From the NCBI RefSeq assembly GCF_023370775.1, contig NZ_JAMCCQ010000005.1:1-64000 (forward strand): a DNA stretch of 64,000 nt. The letters are read 5' to 3'. Made by a program: the position numbers and the translations under genes. The notes beneath the pieces are model-generated. The model saw only the letters and a list, made by a program, of their open reading frames with translations. It was not told where the DNA came from and did no database searches. Below, piece after piece: positions 27,609-31,346 of this stretch. Numbering within the stretch: position 1 is the first letter of the stretch; the number at the start of each line of letters is the position of its first letter. This DNA comes from Marivita sp. GX14005 (lineage in GTDB: Bacteria; Pseudomonadota; Alphaproteobacteria; Rhodobacterales; Rhodobacteraceae).

Positions 27609-29768
<2,160 letters not shown>

Positions 29769-29837
29769 CTGGCATCCTGTCGGTGGCTGCATGTTATGCG
29801 CTCTTTAGGACAAGGCGCCGGGCAGGACAATGCGAAC

Positions 29838-30236
29838 TCATGCATCGGGGCGCGTAAGCACGAACAGCGCCGCACCGCCGAGGCACACTGCCTGGATCGC
29901 GAGCACATAGAGCGGCAGGCCGAACAGCACGCTTCCGGCAAAGGTGATGCCCATCATCGAGGTGGCGATGATCTTGTGCCGCCGCGCGATCGCGCCGCGT
30001 TCTTCCCATGCGACGACGGGCGGGCCGAAATGCGGATGATCGATGATCCAGGCCCGAATGCGCGGCGATCCCTTGCCGAACGCGAAGGCGGCGACGATCA
30101 GCAGCGGGGTCGTGGGCATGACGGGAAGGAACGCTCCGATGATCCCGAGGAGCAGCGCGATCCCGCCCAGCGTCAGCCAGAAAGGACGCGCCAACAAGGC
30201 CCAACGGATGCGGTTTGGATACTTGCGTTTGTCCAT
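29838..30236 (-). CDS. DUF454 (YbaN-like) membrane protein
   Basis: A 132-residue protein with the family string FLPVMPTTPLLIVAAFAF between two membrane helices, followed by HPHFGP and the basic RRHKI, then two more helices. This is the DUF454/YbaN pattern. The function of the family is not established. It lies 69 nt upstream of purL on the same strand and just downstream of the candidate small RNA. Confidence 0.85.
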   Translation of the reverse strand: MDKRKYPNRIRWALLARPFWLTLGGIALLLGIIGAFLPVMPTTPLLIVAAFAFGKGSPRIRAWIIDHPHFGPPVVAWEERGAIARRHKIIATSMMGITFAGSVLFGLPLYVLAIQAVCLGGAALFVLTRPDA

Positions 30237-30262: not shown

Positions 30263-30343
30263 AAAAAAAAGGCCGAGCAGAAGCTCGGCCGAAGTCCAAC
30301 AGGGAGGTATGAAGATGAAACGCCAATGCGTTCCGTCTCACAT
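30263..30343 (-). ncRNA. Candidate small RNA with mmgR/alpha-r8-like architecture
   Basis: Read on the minus strand: a -35-like TTGCCA (plus 30372-30377), 16 nt, a -10-like CATATT (plus 30350-30355), and a predicted start near 30343. The RNA would be about 81 nt. It holds a first stem-loop AACGC-CAAT-GCGTT (near 30318-30332), a single-stranded CATACCTCCCTGTT (plus strand GGGAGG at 30302-30307), and a terminator hairpin GGCCGAGC-TTCT-GCTCGGCC (30271-30290) with eight Ts. This order (stem-loop, CCUCCCU core, terminator, about 80 nt) is what I recall for the mmgR/alpha-r8 family. It could instead be the 3' untranslated end of the lysR mRNA. Confidence 0.6.
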
Positions 30344-30349
30344 GATCCG

Positions 30350-30377
30350 AATATGGCACGCGCAGGCAAGTTGGCAA
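30350..30377 (-). promoter_or_regulatory. Candidate promoter of the small RNA
   Basis: On the minus strand TTGCCA and CATATT are 16 nt apart (5/6 and 4/6 matches to sigma-70 consensus). They lie between the lysR stop (30429) and the predicted RNA start. Confidence 0.45.
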
Positions 30378-30428
30378 GGAAAAGGGCGCACCGCTCGGCA
30401 CAATCCCGCTATGCGTGCGGCGCAAGGG

Positions 30429-31346
30429 TCACAGATCCGCGCCCTGCTCGGCTTCGAGCGCCCGGCGCGTCTGGCGATGGGCGACGATCTCGTCCTGCAC
30501 GAAATCGCGGAACGCGGCGATACGCTTGGACTGCCGCAGCTCTTCGGGATAGGCGAGGTAGACAGGCACTTCGATGGATTCCAGATCGGGCAGAACGCGC
30601 TGTATGGTTGGAAAATCCGCCAGGATATAATCGGGAAGGACGCCGATCCCGAGCCCGGAGCGCACAGCTTGCAGGACCCCAAAGTAATTGTTCACCGTCA
30701 GCGTCAGATCGGCATTGGCCAAGAGCCGCTGGTTCAGCATCATGCCCGCGCTGACCTGCGAGTCGCGCGGGTTCTGACAGATCAGGCGATGCGCCCGCAT
30801 GTCCTCGATGGTGTCCGGCGCGCCGTGTTCGGCGAGGTATTCGGGCGAGGCGTAAAGCCGCATGCGGATGGTCATCAGCTTCTTGCGGATAAGATCGGCC
30901 TGGCTCGGCTCCTTCATGCGCACGGCGACATCGGCCTCGCGCATCGGCAGGTCGAGCACCCGCTCCTCCAGCATCAGGTCGATATTGAGGTTGGGATATT
31001 TGGCGTAAAGCTTGGGGAGCCGCGGCGCCAGCCAGAGCGAACCGAACCCCGTGGTGGTGGTGACGCGCAATTCGCCGAACGCTTCTTCCTCGCTGTCGCG
31101 GATTCGGGCGGTGGCAGCATCGATGCGCTTGTTCATCGAACGCGTGGCATCGAAGAGCAATTCGCCCTGTTCGGTGAGAATCAGCCCTCGCGCGTGGCGG
31201 TGAAACAGGACTGTGTTGAGCGAATCCTCCAGCGCGCGGATCTGCCGCGAAACCGCCGATTGCGACAGGTGCAGCGTATCCCCCGCATGGGTCAGGCTGC
31301 CGGCATCGGCGACCGCGTGAAAGATTCTGAGTTTATCCCAGTCCAT
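30429..31346 (-). CDS. LysR-family transcriptional regulator
   Basis: A 305-residue LysR regulator. The N-terminal winged helix-turn-helix reads LRIFHAVADAGSLTHAGDTLHLSQSA in part, with SRQIRALE as the recognition end. The effector domain follows, with RLPKLYAKYPN and GLGIGVLPDY. It is divergent from the indolepyruvate ferredoxin oxidoreductase gene with a 166-bp gap that holds a T-N11-A palindrome, so it may control that gene and itself. Confidence 0.9.
   Translation of the reverse strand: MDWDKLRIFHAVADAGSLTHAGDTLHLSQSAVSRQIRALEDSLNTVLFHRHARGLILTEQGELLFDATRSMNKRIDAATARIRDSEEEAFGELRVTTTTGFGSLWLAPRLPKLYAKYPNLNIDLMLEERVLDLPMREADVAVRMKEPSQADLIRKKLMTIRMRLYASPEYLAEHGAPDTIEDMRAHRLICQNPRDSQVSAGMMLNQRLLANADLTLTVNNYFGVLQAVRSGLGIGVLPDYILADFPTIQRVLPDLESIEVPVYLAYPEELRQSKRIAAFRDFVQDEIVAHRQTRRALEAEQGADL

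Follow-up and report, generated by a model that had tools for sequence, protein, structure and literature searches.

What is the short, strongly folded element that lies on the minus strand between a lysR gene and the DUF454-purL pair of Marivita sp. GX14005? The window analysed here is a stretch of 64,000 nucleotides (nt) from this member of the Rhodobacteraceae (contig NZ_JAMCCQ010000005.1, positions 1 to 64,000), and the element occupies positions 30263 to 30343. The initial annotation had proposed a small RNA (sRNA) resembling the mmgR/alpha-r8 family. All of our evidence on the sRNA, on a conserved element upstream of it and on a candidate sponge RNA is computational. Judged from its sequence, the element is a convincing sRNA gene, and taken as a whole the findings are very probably explained by its being the sorY gene, encoding a stress sRNA, of a bacterium that has reaction-centre genes and shares its family with Rhodobacter sphaeroides. 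The parts of the gene are as follows.

30263..30343, minus strand: sRNA of about 81 nt, putative SorY orthologue with a predicted 5' end; from the Rfam SorY model, synteny and a fold z score of -6.0
30373..30378, minus strand: putative -35 element CTTGCC, against the CTTGAA consensus of other genera; the sigma-70 scan gives TTGCCA at 30377
30350..30357, minus strand: putative -10 element GCCATATT, against the CCTAAAT consensus of other genera; from the sigma-70 scan and pattern scoring
30308..30342, minus strand: 5' hairpin, from folding of the 81-nt RNA and folding across 56 loci
30292..30311, minus strand: single-stranded core CAUACCUCCCUGUUGGACUU, the presumed pairing region for targets and sponge
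30263..30290, minus strand: intrinsic terminator GGCCGAGC-UUCU-GCUCGGCC followed by U8; from a terminator scan, folding and stem conservation

The architecture described by the initial annotation was found as proposed. The 81-nt RNA folds with -33.5 kcal/mol (z = -6.0, equalled by none of 200 shuffles) into two hairpins flanking an open core, so that a short first stem-loop, an unpaired stretch CAUACCUCCCUGUU and a strong terminator with eight Us (30290-30263) follow one another on the minus strand. The terminator arms GGCCGAGC/GCTCGGCC span 30290-30271 and are followed by eight T at 30270-30263. The core is anti-Shine-Dalgarno-like, and no open reading frame (ORF) lies inside the sRNA, the ATG at 30343 being directly followed by TGA. 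A sigma-70-like site is also present (TTGCCA-N16-CATATT, 30377-30350, minus strand, 9/12), as one such site in 1201 bp against a shuffle mean of 0.3; the shuffles in the tests of promoter, 5' fold, upstream element, SorY-leader pairing and sponge pairing keep base composition only. The claim of a discrete sRNA gene of about 81 nt, with the order hairpin, CCUCCCU core and terminator and a promoter-like site of its own, is thereby upheld.

At Rfam gathering cut-offs the window returned zero family matches. When 231 bp around the element were scanned at a relaxed threshold, the SorY model (RF02651) aligned over its full length (model positions 1-83) to 30263-30339 with 63.3 bits and an E value of 9e-13. 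On the predicted strand, SorX (RF02784) scored 41.3 bits with a cut-off of 46.6, and suhB/mmgR (RF00519) scored 28.7 bits (E 0.00026) with a cut-off of 41; none of the three models reached its curated cut-off. Conservation in the family, which the initial annotation had suggested checking, far exceeds chance, and the SorY model matches 171 of 198 family genomes at E<=1e-5. One of these genomes (G091) is that of Rhodobacter sphaeroides, where the matches for SorY and SorX at 1,632,645 and 2,598,225 lie close to the published 5' ends of 1,632,642 and 2,598,224, as given in PMC6238624. Carried over to the window, the SorY offset gives 30342, within 1 nt of the start at 30343 that had been annotated, and the transcript would begin at one or the other of these positions. 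By locus and core, the element is best read as a SorY orthologue and not as a member of RF02651 that Rfam would accept.

For comparison we assembled 56 distinct loci, namely 29 from a search of relatives, 26 of the 30 best SorY-search matches and the window itself. The set is made up of the top-scoring loci from each search; four others (L128, L135, L136 and L145) were left out as second copies of counted loci, and all 56 were re-located, with none lost, by the string CCTCCCTGTTG[GT]ACT. In a sequence search, a 126-bp stretch matched 34 of 61 genomes, our own included, at E<=0.01. The neighbours in the window are the following.

30429..31346, minus strand: lysR (Pfam HTH_1 and LysR_substrate), conserved upstream neighbour and candidate regulator
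29838..30236, minus strand: DUF454 gene (Pfam DUF454, 114 bits), downstream, an occasional insertion
27609..29792, minus strand: purL (Pfam AIRS, AIRS_C and FGAR-AT_linker), conserved downstream neighbour

At 54 of the 56 loci the sRNA is preceded by a lysR gene on the same strand, and at 40 it is followed by a same-strand purL gene (flanks searched were mostly 1.5 kb); the window element thus occupies the locus usual for SorY. The R. sphaeroides locus (L121) has the same order of lysR, SorY and purL, so the location that the initial annotation thought undescribed is the SorY locus there too. The association with lysR raises the possibility that the element is a piece of the 3' untranslated region (UTR) of the lysR mRNA, with a biogenesis like that of SorX, and not an independent gene. 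At the 54 loci the core lies 117-288 nt beyond the end of the LysR match on the same strand, and SorX itself is reported to derive from a 3'-UTR (PMC6238624). However, a promoter pattern separates lysR from the sRNA in other genera, SorY of R. sphaeroides is a primary transcript according to the literature, and in one genome (G074) the sRNA and its upstream element lie among other genes about 174 kb from lysR, which makes a 3'-UTR origin very improbable.

Another reading would reduce the element to the terminator at the end of lysR or to a leader for DUF454-purL, since a strong terminator does sit between the genes. Conservation extends beyond the terminator to the core and the 5' hairpin, and the gene downstream differs, with DUF454 in the flank at only 3 of the 56 loci; this reading was rejected and retains next to no probability. 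Among the aligned SorY loci, CCUCCCUGUUG and ACU are invariant, and at 54 of 56 the sequence immediately 5' of the core has a folding z score under -1, the mean being -2.9. The sequence of the 5' hairpin varies strongly, and RNAalifold on the 56 sequences found nothing beyond the terminator and one 2-bp helix, because the hairpin is too variable to align. In an alignment of 25 sequences (A2), the structure pairs 88.7% of cells compared with at most 49.0% when slid, and the terminator stem is paired in all 25.

Which of the related sRNA families does the element belong to? SorX (RSs2461, RF02784) has a ACCUCCCUGUUGGAC core and a type of terminator like those of the element. The window genome carries its own SorX as a separate gene (G000:C1:684941-685012, L154), which scores 77.8 bits, above its cut-off, and directly follows an ORF whose C-terminal domain is of the OmpR type, as is that of the ORF preceding SorX in R. 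sphaeroides. We rejected SorX as the identity of the window element, which scores 41.3 bits against 46.6 and does not follow an ompR-type gene, the genuine SorX lying elsewhere. As a separate observation, PMC5107571 describes an 84-nt RNA of Paracoccus denitrificans, 'intergenic 134', as conserved and expressed, in a genetic context said to be common to a putative R. sphaeroides sRNA; it could be SorY or SorX.

The mmgR/alpha-r8/suhB RNAs (RF00519), including SisA-D of Caulobacter, resemble the element in their hairpin, single-stranded CCUCCCU and terminator, in the same order of parts. The RF00519 model aligns over its full length, and the element is its best match in the own genome. Moreover, alpha-r8 is reported in all Alphaproteobacteria except the Rickettsiales (PMC12559287), and the Sor RNAs may therefore be the alpha-r8 branch of this family. 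The covariance-model search that the initial annotation had suggested nevertheless ended at the 28.7 bits noted above, below the cut-off of 41 and 35 bits behind SorY. At a loose level RF00519 matches all 14 control genomes, one of them over the cut-off, and gives 15 weak matches in the own genome, none above the cut-off; two of these are the element and SorX, and the three others that we inspected (L004, L008 and L171, at C7:372799) are without the core. According to PMC12559287 the alpha-r8 core is UUUCCUCCCU and the neighbour in most species is an N-formylglutamate amidohydrolase (FGase) gene. The element has AUACCUCCCU in place of this 10-mer (8 of 10 letters identical), and lysR, DUF454 and purL flank it where an FGase gene would be expected. 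Membership in mmgR/alpha-r8, as originally proposed, is thus improbable, and the element is at most a distant cousin of that family.

Compared with SorY of R. sphaeroides (RSs1543, RF02651), the element is alike in core, terminator, position of the 5' hairpin, a promoter-like site between lysR and the RNA, and the flanking lysR and purL genes. It differs in its shorter and diverged 5' hairpin, its weak RpoH-like hexamers, its score below the tight Rfam cut-off, the DUF454 gene inserted before purL, and the lack of a close takP orthologue among the genes found in the window genome.

What would such an RNA do? SorY helps the purple bacterium R. sphaeroides to survive damage by light and oxygen. 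The pattern CTTGAA-N16-CCTAAAT, which we take to be an RpoH-type motif, reaches 10/13 or more at 29 of the 56 loci, compared with 2.1% of shuffles, and a 16-nt spacing is common to the best sites of 31 loci. All 29 high-scoring loci belong to genera other than that of the window. The RpoH-type reading accords with the dependence of SorY on RpoHI/RpoHII reported for R. sphaeroides in PMC5036791; for the window copy it is an extrapolation. In the literature on R. sphaeroides, SorY is described as having its own promoter, depending on RpoHI/RpoHII and Hfq, and being induced by singlet oxygen. On this model, a stress-type promoter would give rise to a primary transcript of about 81 nt ended by the intrinsic terminator. 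Probably bound to Hfq, the RNA would expose the CAUACCUCCCUGUUGGACUU core between its two hairpins, and the core may pair with ribosome-binding regions of the GGGAGG type in the mRNAs of metabolic or transporter genes, which would block translation, lower the mRNA level and so trim carbon flux during photo-oxidative stress. The general mechanism, in which the core covers ribosome-binding sites, is likely. We infer by extension that the window RNA behaves as R. sphaeroides SorY does, and the same holds for its sigma factor and its local targets.

Several results weigh against the identification as SorY or against transferring the published behaviour to this organism. The score of 63.3 bits is below the Rfam gathering cut-off for SorY of 111 bits, which is a database threshold and not a biological trait. 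Across the family genomes this cut-off is passed in one only, that of R. sphaeroides, and it therefore looks tuned to the founder sequence. As an observation on the database itself, RF02651 would need a wider seed, its gathering score being passed by 1 of the 171 matching family genomes. A test of covariation in the 5' stem on the 25-sequence alignment gave 2 two-sided pairs against 1.4 in shuffles, so that the 5' hairpin rests on folding and not on covariation. Among the 17 loci from the genus of the window, the RpoH-like consensus scores no more than 9/13, and 8 in the window copy; since none of these promoters reaches 10/13, a sigma-70 promoter is equally possible in the window.

The published target of SorY in R. 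sphaeroides is takP (PMC6238624). A positive control on the leaders of nine DctP-type genes of that species speaks for the SorY reading: one leader stands first, forming a duplex with SorY of -24.1 kcal/mol (z -3.37). The protein encoded by its gene matches PDB 2hzk across all 365 residues (848 bits); the entry is named SmoM, and we take it to be TakP. In the window genome, a close TakP orthologue was not found among 17 DctP-type proteins (best 36% identity over 333 aa), and the DctP leaders pair worse than takP does, at best with -19.4 kcal/mol and z -2.55. The published target is for these reasons probably not a target in this organism. A target search with the 14-mer GTCCAACAGGGAGG at up to 2 mismatches gave 17 matches in the own genome, where its reversed control gave 15, and 134 over five genomes, where the control gave 106, with the Sor genes themselves among the matches; this excess is too small for us to claim a list of targets. 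Finally, reaction-centre genes, whose presence fits the SorY reading, gave two matches in the window genome and matches in 9 of 11 other genomes tested, and two genomes (G018 and G019) have SorY and no reaction-centre gene match, which argues that the role of SorY is not tied to photosynthesis alone.

What switches the gene on? In addition to the promoter, we found a conserved element between lysR and the sRNA.

30401..30426, minus strand: conserved upstream element, here CTTGCGCCGCACGCATAGCGGGATTG; consensus YATGC-N7-GCATAGCGG-NN-ATG with the T-N11-A spacing of a LysR-type box

Across the 56 loci the distance from this element to the core downstream is 103-131 nt, with 121 nt the value at 22 loci. 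A leave-one-out position weight matrix (PWM), whose search necessarily yields a single site for each locus, gave scores of 3.9 to 39.5 with a mean of 28.6, against a shuffled mean of -21.9; the window scores 31.0 and the lowest value belongs to L139. The T of T-N11-A is present in 56 of 56 loci and the A in 54. Allowing up to 2 mismatches, each of 10 genomes has one to three sites (one in the window genome), and the reversed pattern has no site in those 10 genomes. In nine of the ten, one site is at sorY; neither of the two sites of G018 is, its sorY copy differing at more positions. The element still precedes sorY where lysR is distant, at about 174 kb in G074 and about 1.5 kb in G145, and hence it belongs to sorY. 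In G074, sorY and the element lie at C1 955000-959000 (L223), beside ORFs that are presumably sigma-factor-like and phnM-like.

The T-N11-A spacing suggests a LysR-type regulator, and the neighbouring LysR would be the first candidate. LysR-type control of sRNAs is known from GcvA acting on GcvB and OxyR on OxyS. That the neighbouring protein binds the upstream dyad and adds to the control of sorY is a possibility that we hold tentatively, short of calling it probable. In R. sphaeroides the T-N11-A dyad has its centre some 75 nt upstream of the published 5' end of SorY, and lysR adjoins sorY at nearly all loci. On the other side, the lysR of G074 is far away, a distance that would still permit action in trans, and a different dyad, AGGTCA-N7-TGACCT, precedes lysR in some relatives. 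The latter lies between lysR and a divergent oxidoreductase gene (for example in L013, L016 and L018) and is perhaps an autoregulatory box of LysR.

Is SorY itself held in check? Outside the window, we identified a candidate sponge RNA in the same genome and its counterpart in R. sphaeroides.

G000:C1:13949-14008 (L257:350-409), plus strand: candidate sponge RNA of about 60 nt, complementary to the SorY/SorX core, outside the window
R. sphaeroides chromosome 1, about 1,426,534-1,426,596 (L256:335-397), minus strand: candidate sponge RNA

The candidate sponge gene carries AGUCGGCC[AG]GUCCGA[CU][AG]GGGAG, of which the GUCC..GGGAG part is predicted to pair with SorY and SorX. At up to 2 mismatches, the 22-nt segment AGTCGGCCRGTCCGAYRGGGAG is present in 146 of the 198 family genomes, once in 145 and twice in G066, where one of the copies has 2 mismatches; the same 198 genomes contain no match to the reversed pattern. 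Among 289 class-wide genomes four match (our own, a second from the family, and two from outside the family that carry 2 mismatches), and the reversed pattern matches two. When the 147 segments were set against the 14 core bases of SorY, 129 paired with all 14 and 18 with 13. Letters that depart from the consensus preserved pairing in 127 cases and disrupted it in 18, of which 17 fall at the two ends, in a set where the search pattern itself constrains which letters can vary and permits three of the variable columns. Segment and SorY occur together in 139 genomes, with segment only in 7, SorY only in 32 and neither in 20 (Fisher p 2e-8, a value that ignores relatedness and genome completeness). 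The predicted net energy of sponge-SorY pairing is -19.8 kcal/mol in the window genome and -17.7 in R. sphaeroides, and in both the core duplex was reached by none of 2000 shuffles.

We examined 36 candidate sponge loci, 30 from the family segment search and 6 others. TTGAC-N18-TARCNT lies upstream in 35 of the 36, a terminator-like hairpin precedes a T run in 34, and CCTCCCT[GT] occurs within 260 nt upstream in 32, one of these being a decayed copy in the window genome. A 5-bp hairpin GUCGG/CCGAC is present in all 30 loci counted by position, and three further segments show the two-sided change GCCGG/CCGGC. An Rfam scan of six sponge loci gave no match near a cut-off, the sole match over the R. 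sphaeroides sponge being SSRC8_1 with 23.5 bits against 80 (E 0.15). Alternatively, the candidate could serve as a leader to the gene that follows, or it could be an sRNA directed at mRNA targets of its own, whose complementarity to the core is incidental.

In several genomes a third Sor-like RNA lies just upstream of the sponge (L165, L166, L167, L168 and L169, at about position 1501), in L169 divergent from a HerA-type helicase gene. In the window genome (L257) only CCTCCCTG is left of the core of this third RNA, and its terminator is gone as well. The candidate sponge there remains intact, a pattern that suggests SorX and SorY as its partners. A precedent makes the sponge reading plausible by analogy. 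CrfA of Caulobacter, described in PMC12559287 as a sponge of the alpha-r8 RNAs SisA-D, is, like our candidate, G/A-rich and complementary to a conserved C-rich core. The candidate differs in its length of about 60 nt, in an anti-core segment that overlaps the 5' hairpin and in usually following the third Sor-like RNA; the likeness drawn here is one of features. We therefore lean, with some caution, towards a dedicated sponge RNA that checks SorY throughout the family and forms, together with SorY, SorX and the third Sor-like RNA, a circuit of siblings and sponge like that of SisA-D and CrfA. The listings from searches of open-access literature contained no paper on such a sponge RNA in this family, and PMC8625941 does not contain the word 'sponge'.

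In conclusion, the window element itself is a further orthologue of the characterised SorY, and the candidate sponge is the novel lead. SorY is reportedly known from work on one species, and our comparison extends it to most of the family genomes sampled, including two tested genomes without a reaction-centre match. The Rfam cut-off for SorY hides nearly all of the copies in the family. The upstream element and the candidate sponge provide two concrete starting points for studying how this stress RNA is turned on and shut down. Should the sponge prove real, the combination of sibling sRNAs with a sponge would be a design that recurs in the Alphaproteobacteria, and one that could be tested directly in R. 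sphaeroides.
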